Shown in pieces: positions 4,056 to 10,516 of a stretch of DNA of 64,000 bases (its first letter is position 1; each line of letters starts with the position of its first letter). The notes below the pieces were generated by a model that worked only from the letters and a program-made list of their open reading frames with translations, was not told where the DNA came from and did no database searches. Origin of the DNA: Gloeobacter kilaueensis JS1 (lineage in GTDB: Bacteria > Cyanobacteriota > Cyanobacteriia > Gloeobacterales > Gloeobacteraceae); the NCBI RefSeq assembly GCF_000484535.1, contig NC_022600.1, forward strand, positions 2,914,001-2,978,000, read 5' to 3'. The position numbers and the translations under genes are program-made.

Positions 4056-4529
4056 TCATTCGGGCGCAACAACCGATAGACACGAGCGCAAAAAAGTGTG
4101 AGCCCGCTCGTAGATATCAAGACGGCTGCTCAGGCGCGGCCCGGCGACGTTGAGAACTTTGATCGCCTGCCGGGCGAGCCAGTCGCTCACCTGATGCGGG
4201 TCTGGAGTGTCCGATAGATCGATCACCAGGCAGGGTCTACCCAACTCGGTGCAGAGGCGGCGGGTAAGGGCAGTGCCGCCGGTGAGCGCGCCGATTGTCA
4301 AGATCAGCGTGCCGTCCGAGTCGCGGACGTTCCAGGCGGTGCGCTGGGCCGGATCGGTGCTCGGCGTCTCCCTGAGGGGATATTCGTCAGCGATCGGACC
4401 GTCTTCTGCCCAGTGGCCAGCCGGACACCACCCTCCGATCGCAATACCTTGTTCGCGGGCCGCATCGAGGGCCGCGCGATCGACGCCGCTCTGGCCGCCG
4501 CTCACGATCTGCTTGAGGCTCAGGCCCAT
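4056..4529 (-). CDS. Rossmann-fold protein, YpsA / putative molybdenum-carrier type
   Basis: A 157-residue protein with the N-terminal signature IVSGGQSGVDRAALDAA, followed by GGWCPAGHWAEDG and later LTGGTALTRR. These are typical of the small proteins annotated as putative molybdenum carriers, related to the lysine-decarboxylase/LOG and YpsA Rossmann group that bind nucleotides. The start is ATG at 4529; its ATG overlaps the TGA stop of the upstream oxygenase-like gene (TGATG), which implies translational coupling. It is the last gene of the minus-strand cluster that begins with the ECF sigma factor. Function in that cluster is unknown; nucleotide or sugar-nucleotide binding is the cautious guess. 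Confidence 0.8.
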   Translation of the reverse strand: MGLSLKQIVSGGQSGVDRAALDAAREQGIAIGGWCPAGHWAEDGPIADEYPLRETPSTDPAQRTAWNVRDSDGTLILTIGALTGGTALTRRLCTELGRPCLVIDLSDTPDPHQVSDWLARQAIKVLNVAGPRLSSRLDIYERAHTFLRSCLSVVAPE

Positions 4530-5527
4530 CAATCGAGAGGTCCGGCAAAGTCCGAATCGACGTAGTGAAACAGAATCGATGTCGAGGTGCAGTGCTGGGG
4601 CAGGCGCTTGCGGAAGTGAGAAATCGCCCGGCCCCGAAAAAGCAGTGCGTCCCCCAGAGCCTGATAGACCGTCACCAGTTCCCTCTCGGTTCGCAGATGC
4701 AGCGGCCAACCGGTGGCCAGTTCCGGCTCCGGTGCAAAGTCAAGGCAGAGAGCAAGGGTGTACTCGCACTGCTCGCGGTCACAATGCTCGGGCAACTCGA
4801 CGCCCCCCGGATAGCAGAGGCTGAACACGTAGGAAGGCTTGAGGGGACGCCCGGCGACGGCACTCACGACTGCAGTGAGTTGATGGTGAAAGAAGTGAAC
4901 GACCGGCTCGTTGTGAAGACTATAGAAGCGATAGTCGCCATCAACTCTCGGTTGCAGTCTGTCCTTGCGGTGCAGGTAGCGGTAGTACCGGCGCAATGCC
5001 CCCAGGTAGAAAGGATGGAGCAGACCCGCCAGGGGCACCCAGCCTTCCTTGAATTGTTCACCAGCCAGCCCAAGCTTTTGCTCCCAGACTCGACGCCCGA
5101 TTGCCACATCCTCTTTAGCCCGCAGCACTCCTGCCCATCGCAGGAGCGAGCGCATAGAAGGTGTGAGACCTGCTGGTTCCTCTGCACCGGGTTGTAACTG
5201 CGAGAAGACCGCAGCAAGCCTGGAGCCATACCAGAACGGCATCTGGACCTGCGTAGCCGGATCGTTCAGCCAGACCGTCGGCCAGGTGTCAAGGAAAGCC
5301 GGTGGAATACTCGCGATCTGCTCGGGCCATTGACCGGCTGGTAGAAATTGGCAGGACGGGTTGACCACCAGTGAAACAGTCTCAGTTGCATCGACTGGCA
5401 CGAATCTGGCAGGCACCAGGAAGTCTGGCTGCTCATCGAGCAGGCAATAAAAACGATCCGGCGCGGGTCTTTTGGCTGGGGCAGCCTGCAGCGCGCCGGT
5501 GAGCCAACTAAAGGTGAGGGTGCTCAT
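4529..5527 (-). CDS. 2OG-Fe(II) oxygenase-like protein
   Basis: A 332-residue protein. The C-terminal third looks like a double-stranded beta-helix dioxygenase: an H-x-D pair at H248/D250 (in PEHCDRE), strands YTLALCLDF and WPLHL, then GDALLFRGRAISHFRKRLP with the distal His at about 304, and a closing STSILFHYV strand. The N-terminal 200 residues match nothing I recognise and are rich in Trp, Pro and aromatic residues. It overlaps the upstream oxygenase by four bases (ATG within the stop region at 5524-5527) and overlaps the next gene by TGATG, so the three genes are tightly coupled. Iron and 2-oxoglutarate dependence is inferred from the His/Asp/His pattern only. Confidence 0.7.
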   Translation of the reverse strand: MSTLTFSWLTGALQAAPAKRPAPDRFYCLLDEQPDFLVPARFVPVDATETVSLVVNPSCQFLPAGQWPEQIASIPPAFLDTWPTVWLNDPATQVQMPFWYGSRLAAVFSQLQPGAEEPAGLTPSMRSLLRWAGVLRAKEDVAIGRRVWEQKLGLAGEQFKEGWVPLAGLLHPFYLGALRRYYRYLHRKDRLQPRVDGDYRFYSLHNEPVVHFFHHQLTAVVSAVAGRPLKPSYVFSLCYPGGVELPEHCDREQCEYTLALCLDFAPEPELATGWPLHLRTERELVTVYQALGDALLFRGRAISHFRKRLPQHCTSTSILFHYVDSDFAGPLD

Positions 5528-6612
5528 CGATGCAACCAGCCGTTGATGGTGAAGCGGCTATCGGCAAACGCCTTCGAGGGGCAATGCACCGGCAGGATCT
5601 CGTGTACCAGTCGGCCTGGGAAAAAGACAATCTGGTTTTGTTGGGGGATGATGCCCTTAAAGGAGCTGGCTCCAGAACACCCGTTCTCGAAGGACGTGTC
5701 GTAGATTCGCAGCTCTCCACCAGTGAAAGCAACCGGTTCGCGGTGGAAGAAATAGATAAAGGTGATCTCCCTGGTGCGGCTCAACTCGTGGGTTGAATCG
5801 GTGTGCTTGCCAAAAAAATCGCCATCGTTGCTCGCCGTCATCTGCGGCTCGACTTCTGCGATTTCAAATGGTGTATATTCGAGCTTCTCAGCAATTCTCG
5901 GCCAATAAGAAAGAATGCGCTGAGTAAAAAGCGTGGAGTACCTTTCTAGATCGAAGAAGACGCGGGAGCGCCGCTGGCTAAAATCGAGGTTGTTCGTACC
6001 GCTGCCTGGCACGAGTACCCGGCTGGCTTGAAAGTGAGCCTCGTGAGCGAGGGCAAATTCGATCAGCCCAGTCAACTCCTCCTTGGATAAAAACTCTTCA
6101 AAGACTGCAACCTGCGTACCCCGTATGGTTGCACTGTTAACAGAACGCTGACCGTTGGGAGTCTGTTGGCCAATGAGCGGTTCTCTGCTTTTTCGAGTAC
6201 TTGTCGTATCGGGTGGATGAATGCGCATCGGCACACCAGGAAGAGCATCGGGTGGATGAATGCGCATCGGCACACCAGGAAGAGCATCGGGTGGATGAAT
6301 GCGCATCGGCACGCCGGGAAGACCAGGTTCTTGTGCATCGACACGGGCTGCTTGAGTGTTCATCTGGGTATCCACAAGACGACGCACCACCGCATCGCCA
6401 AACACTCTAGCCATACGCTGGCCGATAACATTCCCCACAGCACCGGCAAGTCTTTCGGCAATCGCCGCTTCTAATTCTGCAGAAGGTGTTTCATGGGATT
6501 TTATGTGCTGAAAAATACTGGCCAATAGCTGCCGTTCCTGGTCTGTGATCACTCGCTCATCTTTTATCAGAGCATCACAAAGCATGTCGATGGTTAGAGA
6601 TTGTGTTTCCAC
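5524..6612 (-). CDS. 2OG-Fe(II) oxygenase (prolyl 4-hydroxylase-like) with a tandem proline-rich repeat
   Basis: A 362-residue protein. Residues 1-97 form a helical, acidic N-terminal region. Residues 98-136 are three near-perfect 13-residue repeats (LPGVPMRIHPPDA), then comes a Ser/Thr/Gln linker. From about 168 to the end lies a dioxygenase domain of the prolyl 4-hydroxylase/PKHD type. Its iron ligands are H270 and D272 (KHTDS) and H337 (GRLVHEI), with R353 placed to hold 2-oxoglutarate. GTG at 6612 was chosen because AAGGAG lies nine bases upstream and it follows the kinase stop by 13 bases; the frame extends to ATG at 6681 inside the kinase gene. It is co-directional with the sigma factor and kinase. 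The fusion of repeats to a hydroxylase is unusual. Confidence 0.85.
   Translation of the reverse strand: METQSLTIDMLCDALIKDERVITDQERQLLASIFQHIKSHETPSAELEAAIAERLAGAVGNVIGQRMARVFGDAVVRRLVDTQMNTQAARVDAQEPGLPGVPMRIHPPDALPGVPMRIHPPDALPGVPMRIHPPDTTSTRKSREPLIGQQTPNGQRSVNSATIRGTQVAVFEEFLSKEELTGLIEFALAHEAHFQASRVLVPGSGTNNLDFSQRRSRVFFDLERYSTLFTQRILSYWPRIAEKLEYTPFEIAEVEPQMTASNDGDFFGKHTDSTHELSRTREITFIYFFHREPVAFTGGELRIYDTSFENGCSGASSFKGIIPQQNQIVFFPGRLVHEILPVHCPSKAFADSRFTINGWLHR
6209..6325 (-). repeat. Three tandem 39-bp in-frame repeats
   Basis: Units at 6209-6247, 6248-6286 and 6287-6325. The first two are identical and the third differs at a few bases. Each encodes 13 residues (LPGVPMRIHPPDA) of the oxygenase gene, so the array is coding and not a CRISPR or spacer array. 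Near-identity at DNA level suggests recent duplication. Confidence 0.95.
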
Positions 6613-6625
6613 CCGTGAGCACTCC

Positions 6626-9517
6626 TTACTGAAAACGAGAACTTTCCTTGTCTTCCCGCATGACTTGCAAGCGCATGGCATTGACCTGAGCCTTGAGAGT
6701 AGCCACTATAGCTTGAGACTCAGGATCTTTGAGTACATCTTTGAAGATCGGCTCTTTCGTCAACCAGCGGTAGTTGCGAAAGCCAGAGTGAATCGCTGCA
6801 TCGAGCCAGTATTGCGCCTTTGCCTTTTCTCTTTTGATGGCATAAATAGCGGCAAGATCAAGACGAATTTTAAAGTTCTCGTCGCCAGCGGCAATCCGCT
6901 GCTCGTCGAGTCGAAGGCTGCGCCCTAATAGCTCTCTAGAACGTAACTGCTGTCCCTGCTGAAGTGCAATGTAGCTCAGCTGAGTTGTTGGTTGCAACTG
7001 AGAGATAAAAAAGGGTAATTGGGGATCGATATCGTCGATAAGCTTTTTCAAGTACCCATCAGCCTGCGGCCAGTGCCCCTGGATGTATTCGATGTACCCG
7101 GCACTGTCTAATGCCATTGGTTCTCGTGAATTTGACTCCAGCAAGCTATTCACCATCTGTTGCGCCTGCTTGTTTTCTCCCTGCAACAAGTACAGGACGC
7201 TCAGTGTATACAAAGAATAGCTGTAATCAGGCTGAAAGCTGAGGGCCTTGTTCAGCCATTGCTTCGCTTTTTCATCTTCTCCAAGGAGCCAGTAGACAAA
7301 GCCAATGTCATCGTAGGCATCGGCGGTAGCAGGATTGATCGAGAGTCTCTTTTTGTACAGGTGCATTGCAGAGTCAAGGTGGCCTGTGTCCCGCTCTACA
7401 CCGGCGAGGTTACCGATCGCAGGATAATAATTTGGATTCGATGCGATGATACGCCGATACTCGGCTGCTGCCCGATGCAGTTGTCCTTTGGCATCGTAGG
7501 CTTCGCCCAGGGAATTACGAGCATGGGGGGAGTCAGGATCGAGGTTGAGCGCTTTGCGACTGACGGCAATCGCCGTATTCAGCCACGCTGGAGAGTCACC
7601 GAAAGCCTGTGTTTTTTGAACATAGGCGGCAGCGAGGCCATCGTAGGCACGGGCGTACTCAGGATCTCTTTGCAGGGCGCGCTTGTAGAGATCGATGGCC
7701 AGCTCAGTATATTTTCTGGTATTGCGACGGCGATAGGCGTTGCCTTGCAGGAAGTAGTTATAGGCAGTCAGGTCATCAGGTGGTATCTGCCCGAGGCGCG
7801 AGCGCTCCTGAGGAGACAGTTTTACTTGCAGAGTACTTGCGATCTGGCTCGCGATGTCCGCCTGGATCGTGAAGATATCGCTGAATTTGCGGTCGTAGTG
7901 CTCTGCCCAGAGCTGCGCCTCGGTTTGGGGATTGATCAGCTGAGCGACGATGTGAACCCGCCCACCTTCAAGGCGGGCATCGCCGGTGACGATCGCACTG
8001 ACTCCCAGTTCCTGGGCGATCTCGCGCAGGCTCTTGTTGCTGTTTTTGTAGTACTGGGCGACATTGCTGGAGATGACGGTCAGCTCGGCGATCTTGCCCA
8101 GTTCGGTGGTGATGTCGGTGGCGATGCCATCGCTGAAGTAGCGATTATTTGGATCGCTGCCGGTATTCTCAAAAGGCAGGACAGCGACGGATTTGCCTGA
8201 GAGGGTTTGAAATGGTGCTGTCGGGGAAAAGCTGTGCTGATAGACCCAGACGCCCGCTGTGAGCATAGCGGCCAGCGCTGCCACACTCAGCGATTCGCGG
8301 TAGCGGCGCAATAACTTGGAGCTGCGATACAGCAGCGAATCCTTGCGGGCCAGCACCGGCAGACCGTCGAGGTGCCGCCGGATATCCTGGGCAAACTCGG
8401 CAACTGAGCTGTAGCGGCGATCGGGTTCCTTGCGCAGAGCTTTGAGCAAGATTGTGTCAAGATCGCCCGCCAACAGGGCACTACGCCGACGCAATTCGGC
8501 AGTGAGCGTCTGACTGCTCTCCGCCGGGGCTATTGCCTGAATCTGCAGCACGGCTTTGCTCGGCAACTCCGGCTGGGTCTCGCAGACGAGCCGCTCCAGC
8601 GCCTGGAGCGAAGAATTTTTGATCTCGAAGGGGCGCTGGCCAGTCAACAGCTCGTAGAGGACGACCCCCAGCATGTAGACGTCGCTCGCGGTAGTGACCG
8701 CTTCGCCGCGAATCTGCTCGGGACTCGCGTAGTTGGGCGTCAGCACCCGCATCGCAGTCTGGGTGAGGTCGGCGGCTTTTGGATCGGGGGTGAGGATTTT
8801 GGCGATGCCGAAGTCGAGCAACTTGGGCACCCCCTGCTCGGTGACAAGGATGTTGCTCGGCTTGATGTCGCGGTGGATGACGTGGTGGCTGTGGGCGTAC
8901 TGCACAGCCGAACAGACGCCCAAAAAAAGTTCCAGCCGTTCACGAATGCCGAGTTGGGCGCGGCTGCAGTACTGATCGATGGGCAACCCCCGGATGTAAT
9001 CCATGATGAGGTAGGGGCGACCGTCGGCAGTCGTGCCGCCGTCTAAGAGCCGGGCGATATTCGGGTGGTCGAGGTCGGCGAGGATCTGCCGCTCGATATA
9101 GAAGCGGCGGGTGAGCAGATCGCTGTTCAGTTCTTTTGCGATCAGTTTGACCGCTACCTGTCTTTGAAATTGCTGGTCGGAGCGCTCGGCCAGATAGACC
9201 GTCCCCATGCCTCCCTGGCCGATCGTGCGGAGCAGGCGATAGGAACCTATCGCACCGTCGATGGACTCCGTCTTTGAAATCACGATCTCCCCGGCATTTT
9301 CGGGTGCATCCAGATAGCTCTCGATTTGAAGGGGCAGGATAGGAGCATCGAGAAAGCCGTCTTCCTGCTCGTAGAGGTGAAGCGCTGCCTGGACGGCCTG
9401 CTGCAGTTGCTCGTCGCCCGCGCACGCCGAGACGACAAAAGCAGTGCGATCGCTCCGGGCACACTGGAGGGCGGCCTCGAAGACGACTTCGACCTTTTGC
9501 CACTGCCTTTGATCCAC
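6626..9517 (-). CDS. Ser/Thr protein kinase with TolB-like and TPR regions
   Basis: A 963-residue membrane kinase. Residues 1-90 are a short helical head. The kinase domain spans about 93-385 with glycine loop GQGGMGTVY (100-108), K124 in VAVKL, catalytic HRDIKPSN (215-222), DFG (235-237) and an APE-like SPE segment. One transmembrane helix lies at roughly 410-430. Residues 440-570 resemble the TolB/FlgO-like domain often fused to adenylate cyclases and kinases (SVAVLPFENTGSDPNNRYFSDGI). The rest is a series of TPR units ending near 930. All catalytic residues are present. It starts three bases after the sigma-factor stop, a pairing common for ECF-type sigma factors in planctomycetes, acidobacteria and Gloeobacter-like genomes. 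The signal sensed is unknown. Confidence 0.95.
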   Translation of the reverse strand: MDQRQWQKVEVVFEAALQCARSDRTAFVVSACAGDEQLQQAVQAALHLYEQEDGFLDAPILPLQIESYLDAPENAGEIVISKTESIDGAIGSYRLLRTIGQGGMGTVYLAERSDQQFQRQVAVKLIAKELNSDLLTRRFYIERQILADLDHPNIARLLDGGTTADGRPYLIMDYIRGLPIDQYCSRAQLGIRERLELFLGVCSAVQYAHSHHVIHRDIKPSNILVTEQGVPKLLDFGIAKILTPDPKAADLTQTAMRVLTPNYASPEQIRGEAVTTASDVYMLGVVLYELLTGQRPFEIKNSSLQALERLVCETQPELPSKAVLQIQAIAPAESSQTLTAELRRRSALLAGDLDTILLKALRKEPDRRYSSVAEFAQDIRRHLDGLPVLARKDSLLYRSSKLLRRYRESLSVAALAAMLTAGVWVYQHSFSPTAPFQTLSGKSVAVLPFENTGSDPNNRYFSDGIATDITTELGKIAELTVISSNVAQYYKNSNKSLREIAQELGVSAIVTGDARLEGGRVHIVAQLINPQTEAQLWAEHYDRKFSDIFTIQADIASQIASTLQVKLSPQERSRLGQIPPDDLTAYNYFLQGNAYRRRNTRKYTELAIDLYKRALQRDPEYARAYDGLAAAYVQKTQAFGDSPAWLNTAIAVSRKALNLDPDSPHARNSLGEAYDAKGQLHRAAAEYRRIIASNPNYYPAIGNLAGVERDTGHLDSAMHLYKKRLSINPATADAYDDIGFVYWLLGEDEKAKQWLNKALSFQPDYSYSLYTLSVLYLLQGENKQAQQMVNSLLESNSREPMALDSAGYIEYIQGHWPQADGYLKKLIDDIDPQLPFFISQLQPTTQLSYIALQQGQQLRSRELLGRSLRLDEQRIAAGDENFKIRLDLAAIYAIKREKAKAQYWLDAAIHSGFRNYRWLTKEPIFKDVLKDPESQAIVATLKAQVNAMRLQVMREDKESSRFQ

Positions 9518-9520
9518 AGC

Positions 9521-10084
9521 TCAAGCCCCCATCTGCGCCCTTAAGAACAGGCGAGCAAGAGTCCACTGGCGCTTGATCGTCGCCGGTGAACTACCGAGGG
9601 CGGCAGCGGTCTGCTCGATCGTCATCCCGCCAAAATAGCGCATCTCGACGATGCGAGCCTGGACCGCGCTCAGCTCCGCCAGCCGAATCAGCGCCTCGTC
9701 GAGGGCGAGCAGTTGCTCATCTTGCTCACCGGCAGGAAGACTGCCCAGGCGATCGAGCGAGACTTTGATCGCCTGACCGCCGCGCTTGAGAGCGTGGCGG
9801 GAGCGAGCGTGATCGACGAGGATGCAGCGCATCGTCCGGGCCGCCACCGCCAGAAAGTGAGCCCGGTTCTGCCAGGTGGGCACCTGCCTGGGGGCGACCA
9901 GTTTCAGATAGGCTTCGTTGACCAGGGCCGTTGGCTGCAGGGTGTGGCCGGCAGCCTGGGAGCGCAGATAGCGGGCTGCCAGAGTGTGCAGTTCCCGGTA
10001 GACAAGCGGGGTCAGCGCTGCTAGCGCCTCCTGGTCGCCGTCGCTCCACTGGTTGAGAAGCACCGTTACATCGTGGGTATTCAT
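9521..10084 (-). CDS. ECF-family RNA polymerase sigma factor
   Basis: A 187-residue sigma factor of the ECF-like group that accompanies Ser/Thr kinases. Region 2 is VLLNQWSDGDQEALAALTPLVYRELHTLAARYLR with the following LQPTALVNEAYLKL. Region 4 is ELSAVQARIVEMRYFGGMTIEQTAAALGSSPATIKRQWTLARLFL, with a clear helix-turn-helix. ATG at 10084 follows GAGGT and starts the conserved domain directly; the frame extends to 10270 but the added 62 residues look non-coding. It is the first gene of the minus-strand cluster 4056-10084 and probably helps express it, perhaps controlled by the kinase encoded next to it (inference). Confidence 0.93.
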   Translation of the reverse strand: MNTHDVTVLLNQWSDGDQEALAALTPLVYRELHTLAARYLRSQAAGHTLQPTALVNEAYLKLVAPRQVPTWQNRAHFLAVAARTMRCILVDHARSRHALKRGGQAIKVSLDRLGSLPAGEQDEQLLALDEALIRLAELSAVQARIVEMRYFGGMTIEQTAAALGSSPATIKRQWTLARLFLRAQMGA

Positions 10085-10516
10085 CTGCAGGCGGACCTCA
10101 TCACCCATTGCAGCTTGAATTACGCAGGCACTGGTACCGAACAGCAAGCAATACGCGAGATCAACAGCCAATTGCGGCCAGATAGCCGTGATAAGTATGT
10201 CAGGACCGAAAGTCGAAAGGGTACCCATCATCATACATGCAATCGCTCTACGGCCCTGCCGCAAATACAATCACGCCTGCTCGCGGACGAGAAGAATCAC
10301 TGGATTCCTGTCATTGTTGTGAAGATTTCTTTCGAGTTGTCCTAACAAGCCTATCGCCACTTCTGGCAGCAATGTGTCTGAACACAGTAGTGTCATTTTC
10401 ATGCGAGACGCGAAAAAAGCGATTTCAAGTAGATAGAGGGCGACGGTATAGCAGGCTGGGGGGAAAGAAGCGGTCGCCCTCAATAAAGAAAACGAAATTG
10501 GGCAAACGATCGGCTC
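10085..10516. other. Intergenic region between divergent sigma-factor and folC genes
   Basis: About 430 bases without a convincing gene on either strand. It must hold the promoters of both flanking genes. A short hairpin TGTGT-CTGA-ACACA lies at 10373-10386, and a weak TTTCAA with TATAGC 18 bases further sits in front of folC. I see no terminator, repeat or RNA gene. Confidence 0.5.

Follow-up and report, generated by a model that had tools for sequence, protein, structure and literature searches.

The window, the whole stretch of 64,000 nucleotides analyzed here, comes from Gloeobacter kilaueensis JS1, whose genome is a single contig of 4,724,791 bp. On its minus strand, a string of genes runs from an ECF sigma factor through a Ser/Thr kinase with TPRs to a fusion protein and a second oxygenase. 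The first gene of this putative operon (9521-10270) encodes an ECF43-type sigma factor (PF07638, E=4.5e-52) and is followed after 3 bp by a gene for a Hanks-type Ser/Thr kinase with a TPR region (6626-9517; PF00069, E=6.4e-48), which ends 13 bp before the start of the fusion gene. The fusion gene (5524-6612) encodes a 362-residue protein in which a helical head precedes three proline-rich repeats and a 2OG/Fe(II) oxygenase of the prolyl-hydroxylase type. Its start codon is GTG, which lines up with the starts of the acidobacterial homologues described below; the same frame is open as far as an ATG at 6681. The stop codon of the fusion gene is overlapped by 4 bp by the ATG of the gene for the second oxygenase-fold protein (4529-5527, 332 residues). 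The next same-strand open reading frame downstream (4056-4709) resembles, by motif, what we take to be a putative molybdenum-cofactor carrier. We found no paralogue of the fusion within the G. kilaueensis genome and no match to it in three other Gloeobacter genomes.

Architecture and fold of the fusion protein

Structure prediction places four helices (residues 2-17, 24-39, 45-71, and 73-92) in the head (6337-6609, residues 2-92), with pLDDT values of about 70, followed by a region predicted to be disordered (residues 92-164) and a C-terminal beta-fold domain that is modeled with confidence over most of its length. A sequence-only reading of this locus had described a leader-like helical N-terminus, in agreement with this model, and three near-identical 13-residue repeats, which are real. 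The repeats lie at residues 98-136 (LPGVPMRIHPPDA/A/T), encoded by three tandem 39-bp units (6205-6321; LPGVPMRIHPPD(A/A/T)) that show 2, 2, and 4 mismatches over 39 positions in their three pairwise comparisons and are therefore 90-95% identical. Tandem Repeats Finder reports a period of 39, 2.9 copies, 97% matches, and a score of 216, far past chance expectation. The near-identity of the units in DNA indicates that the expansion in the window is recent.

The catalytic double-stranded beta-helix domain (5527-6120, residues 165-362) matches Pfam family PF13640 (E=1e-15). The H270, D272, and H337 residues named in the earlier reading are intact, and together with R353 they are invariant across 24 aligned family members; from its position, R353 is likely the 2OG-binding residue. 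The beta-helix fold, HxD...H triad, and basic residue place the domain in the prolyl-hydroxylase-like part of the 2OG/Fe(II) oxygenase superfamily. In structural comparison the predicted model scores highest against the Pseudomonas putida prolyl-4-hydroxylase 4j25 (Z 16.3, 164 aligned residues, 3.0 Å), with Trichoplax PHD (Z 15.7, 163 residues, 3.1 Å), PHD2 (Z 15.6, 172 residues, 3.5 Å), the P. putida enzyme with EF-Tu (4iw3; Z 15.4, 166 residues, 3.1 Å), and Tpa1 also among the best neighbors, and with the oxygenases 3dkq (Z 15.7, 149 residues, 2.7 Å) and PiuC (9qn4; Z 15.6, 155 residues, 3.1 Å) so near to them that the gaps in Z are too small for ranking. The best neighbors of the model from structural comparison and Foldseek are mostly prolyl hydroxylases, and a sequence-profile search against the PDB returned Dictyostelium PHD (6t8m) at the top and Tpa1 next. 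Likeness of fold is no proof of prolyl hydroxylation.

A distant standalone relative of the enzyme (27.5% identity) occurs in an Azospirillum cluster of the lasso-peptide type, which makes peptide substrates plausible for the enzyme family. In this cluster, on Azospirillum oryzae plasmid NZ_CP054615.1 (192512-205129), the gene for the relative overlaps an asparagine-synthetase-type gene and adjoins lasso B2 and PqqD-like genes, and the oxygenase is possibly a lasso peptide tailoring enzyme.

Homologues and selection on the repeats

The sequence-only reading would have been undone had homologues elsewhere lacked the repeats. We found about 40 full-length homologues in soil Acidobacteria, a total made up of first matches and additions from genome searches, each with the order head, proline-rich region, and enzyme. 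The proline-rich region is at the same position in every full-length homologue that shares the head, and most contain tandem repeats; self-repetition of the linker exceeds all of six codon shuffles in 35 of 38 homologues. The repeats are wholly unlike between lineages in sequence and always rich in proline: units include LPGVPMRIHPPDA, PQPPSGP, GPGPK (locus L028), KEPDPPGVRAPTKPLREAPLPPSP, and SFAPRPPSPGPPSPGVSRDLADTSAQ in seven copies. Unit lengths vary too, with a 24-residue unit in four copies (L037), the 11-residue unit SGPRPPQPTTA (L073/L085), and a 26-residue unit in seven copies (L076/L088). Both number and sequence differ among related acidobacterial species, while the head and enzyme are conserved. 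Relatives of the enzyme from cyanobacteria match the catalytic domain only, with unrelated N-termini that lack the richness in proline repeats (median of 11% Pro upstream of the catalytic domain, versus 26% in the head-bearing family). Among these cyanobacterial relatives (L002-L020), at least three distinct N-terminal regions precede the same catalytic domain.

A conserved head and hypervariable repeats on a single gene product would suit the leader-plus-core arrangement of RiPPs, but the head has no match to a Pfam or NCBIfam family or to known families of RiPP leader. In the 22 genomes first checked the head was seen only in fused form, with one copy frameshifted, and no stand-alone precursor gene with the same head was found in them. 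The sole short open reading frame with head and repeats, found in a wider sample with full flanks (L085, 7262-8236, with repeats of the SGPRPPQPTTA type), is a remnant of a locus that suffered a deletion.

For each homologue, we aligned the linker DNA with itself, allowing any lag, and took the best match. The best lag is a multiple of three in all 20 proteins with a clear repeat, and 252 of the 313 mismatches between their units fall in the third codon position (165 of 210 in a stricter subset), a share above one third in every one of the 20. Codon differences between units are 115 synonymous to 4 nonsynonymous at proline, 24 to 7 at glycine, and 82 to 42 at other residues, and the Nei-Gojobori dN/dS between units is 0.012 for proline versus 0.122 for the remaining residues; unit pairs inside one protein are not independent, and the significance of these counts is to be read as an indication. 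This excess of third-position and silent proline-codon changes means that the repeat peptide is under purifying selection, its prolines most of all. Between species, dN/dS is 0.20 in the linker versus 0.09 in the head and 0.11 in the enzyme. The two sets of rates together describe a peptide that is maintained within each protein, proline foremost, and whose remaining residues drift from one species to another. The window's own three units are too similar to reveal selection taken alone.

These data bear on two other accounts of the repeats. A linker without meaning, expanded by chance slippage in one strain, would fit the 90-95% identity of the window units, but about 40 homologues in another phylum have an equivalent region, with unit divergence biased to the third codon position. 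We consider it highly implausible that slippage accounts for the repeats as a whole, and reject a strain-specific artefact on the strength of the equivalent repeats in homologues. The second account, the main rival of self-hydroxylation, is possible, if doubtful: the repeats would form a polyproline-II spacer or docking arm that sets the enzyme's reach toward a separate cellular protein, which it would hydroxylate much as the P. putida prolyl hydroxylase does EF-Tu, with the head binding the target or a partner. The predicted disorder of residues 92-164 is consistent with such an arm, the region diverges quickly between species in both sequence and length as linkers do, and the EF-Tu-bound prolyl hydroxylase is among the closest structural matches. 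Further, we found no consistent linkage of a transporter, protease, or other classical RiPP gene, which leaves a secreted RiPP as just one of the possible products. Proline-rich interdomain linkers likewise retain their prolines, and the earlier proposal that the repeats may be the enzyme's own substrate is supported in part. However, the non-proline residues of the repeats are also constrained within each protein (dN/dS of 0.12), the units stay alike despite silent divergence, beyond the likely need of a spacer, and the leaderless cyanobacterial relatives manage without an arm. The proline constraint within proteins, the prolyl-hydroxylase-like fold, and the shared architecture of the homologues lead us to favor the self-substrate reading.

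Gene neighborhood and origin

The sequence-only reading took in neither the acidobacterial family nor the genes on either side of the fusion, namely the translationally coupled second oxygenase and the kinase and sigma factor genes. The second oxygenase gene directly follows the fusion gene in every intact acidobacterial locus with enough flanking sequence. Its product retains an invariant HxD motif (H248/D250) and H304, and its model has a 2OG oxygenase fold, the nearest structures being of the BesD/HalB type, the SnoN type, and prolyl hydroxylases, with amino-acid and small-molecule oxygenases at the head of the list. Halogenases of the BesD/HalB type have HxG in place of HxD. Because the second oxygenase keeps HxD, we disfavor its identification as a halogenase despite these neighbors. 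The gene has been lost in both decayed loci that were open to checking: at L038, where the fusion carries a frameshift, neither the second oxygenase gene nor the kinase gene was found, and L085 lacks the enzyme domain and the second oxygenase gene and retains a truncated kinase. Proteins related to the second oxygenase are also encoded in some genomes from another class of Acidobacteria that lack the fusion gene, and the protein is therefore not confined to the fusion system. Genomes of one such family (f48; L114-L121) have one or two copies each, in one case as a tandem pair, and lipoprotein-like genes are often close by.

Where the flanking sequence leaves room, an acidobacterial locus nearly always has a convergent Ser/Thr kinase gene beside it, and this holds also for two loci (L028 and L084) in which the usual purQ/yebC neighbors were not seen. 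In the window, the kinase and sigma factor correspond to an ECF43 pair, in which a PF07638 sigma factor lies beside a Hanks-type kinase. The ECF43 consensus has a phosphorylatable threonine in a QTTA-like motif in sigma2.2 (PMC13147305), and the window sigma factor has QPTA at this position, a QTTA-like motif by sequence. The G. kilaueensis genome contains five strong PF07638 sigma genes of this type (L122-L125), and those paired with kinases elsewhere in the genome adjoin unrelated genes, for a phosphatase-like open reading frame, a FecR-like open reading frame, and a TPR protein. Such neighbors give the kinase-sigma pair the look of a switch for general use and suggest that it is exchangeable.

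The kinases raise a further alternative, a special case of self-hydroxylation whose probability is counted within that of the broader reading, in which the fusion is a tethered sensor of oxygen, 2-oxoglutarate, or iron: the fused domain would hydroxylate the repeats, their state would be read by some partner, for instance the linked kinase, and the product would stay on the protein and be no natural product. HIF offers a parallel, being read once PHD has acted on it. The kinase beside the acidobacterial loci, the sigma factor and kinase that open the window operon, and the animal and Dictyostelium PHDs among the best fold matches all suit a sensor. Yet the window kinase is no full-length counterpart of the acidobacterial one, the identity of about 32-39% being limited to the kinase part, the ECF43-kinase pairs elsewhere in the genome sit beside unrelated genes, and hypervariable repeats are ill-suited to a reader domain unless only hydroxyproline-rich helices are recognized. 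We think a sensor role unlikely.

In a tree of catalytic domains, the window enzyme, on a long branch, groups with the acidobacterial clade (100/99) and not with the cyanobacterial one, and on this placement we reject its descent from the cyanobacterial proteins that lack the head. In a sample of 292 genomes of cyanobacteria, the head was seen in the window's own genome only, a frequency that, like others from our genome samples, is a lower bound because only part of the first-look candidates was scored. The tree and the lone cyanobacterial head make horizontal transfer between the Gloeobacter and acidobacterial lineages likely. A phage source was rejected, with no viral contig encoding the head, as was a plasmid source, since plasmids gave nothing nearer than distant relatives, and these of the catalytic domain. 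PADLOC hits were to generic 2OG and kinase domains, and a defense-system reading was dropped; the PHROG labels 'DNA endonuclease V' and 'ferrochelatase' were set aside as being at odds with the fold evidence.

Proposed mechanism and related systems

In the self-substrate reading, one polypeptide would combine substrate with enzyme. Its helical head could serve as a built-in leader or an oligomerization domain, the disordered proline-rich repeats would be the substrate, and the C-terminal 2OG/Fe(II) domain would hydroxylate their prolines, either in cis or from one protomer to another. The product of the overlapping downstream gene, the second oxygenase, might oxidize the same repeats further or act as partner of the first. 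In Gloeobacter, the ECF43-type sigma factor encoded upstream, under control of its kinase, is probably the switch for expression, and the convergent kinase of Acidobacteria may have a regulatory or read-out role. We judge the evidence evenly poised on whether the fusion enzyme hydroxylates its own repeat prolines, or those of a partner, with help from the second oxygenase. More tentatively, the system may be a new class of self-modifying fused precursor, in which the two oxygenases multiply hydroxylate the fusion's own hypervariable repeats to give a bacterial hydroxyproline-rich protein or peptide. If so, it would point to production of hydroxyproline-rich proteins by some bacteria, and the diverse repeats would provide a natural library of cis substrates for studying the specificity of prolyl hydroxylases. 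The two-gene core of fusion and second oxygenase is small and directly testable in Escherichia coli. In the open-licence literature, we found no description of a prolyl hydroxylase fused to bacterial proline-rich repeats or of a hydroxyproline RiPP of this kind.

The regulatory genes have known counterparts in the ECF43 sigma factor and Hanks-type kinase pairs EcfP-PknT and EcfK-PknS (PMC13147305), which share with the window pair the PF07638 sigma domain, the kinase partner, and the phosphosite position, QTTA in the consensus and QPTA here. The likeness extends to the regulatory module only, with its tie to the fusion operon seen in the window alone. The P. putida prolyl-4-hydroxylase that acts on EF-Tu, PHD2/EGLN1, Dictyostelium PHD, and Tpa1 have the same catalytic fold and iron ligands as the fusion, but act on separate proteins, unlike the self-acting fusion proposed here. 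To our knowledge, none of these enzymes combines a leader-like head with proline-rich repeats in tandem.

Fused precursors that modify themselves are already known with a methyltransferase, in borosins, and with a copper oxidase, in burpitides. In the fused borosins (OphMA, types I-III), one polypeptide comprises a helical leader or clasp, the enzyme, and a repeatedly modified core (PMC8429565), and the comparison with borosins drawn in the sequence-only reading is sound in its logic, with leader, enzyme, and core in one chain as proposed for the fusion. The order of parts differs, since borosins have an alpha-N-methyltransferase and a C-terminal core, whereas the fusion has a 2OG/Fe(II) oxygenase, its only detected catalytic domain, and a presumed core of tandem repeats between head and enzyme. 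The closest layout is that of the fused burpitide cyclases of plants, BURP-domain precursors whose core repeats are N-terminal to an autocatalytic oxidative domain, such as SkrBURP with four VLFYPSY repeats (PMC11253845). In burpitides, a copper-dependent BURP domain macrocyclizes side chains, in contrast to the iron/2OG fold and probable hydroxylation of the bacterial fusion, in which a Pfam scan gave no BURP match. The enzyme domain therefore places the fusion outside both borosins and burpitides, and a bacterial version based on a 2OG oxygenase would add a major class of protein hydroxylases to the enzymes known from self-modifying fused precursors.
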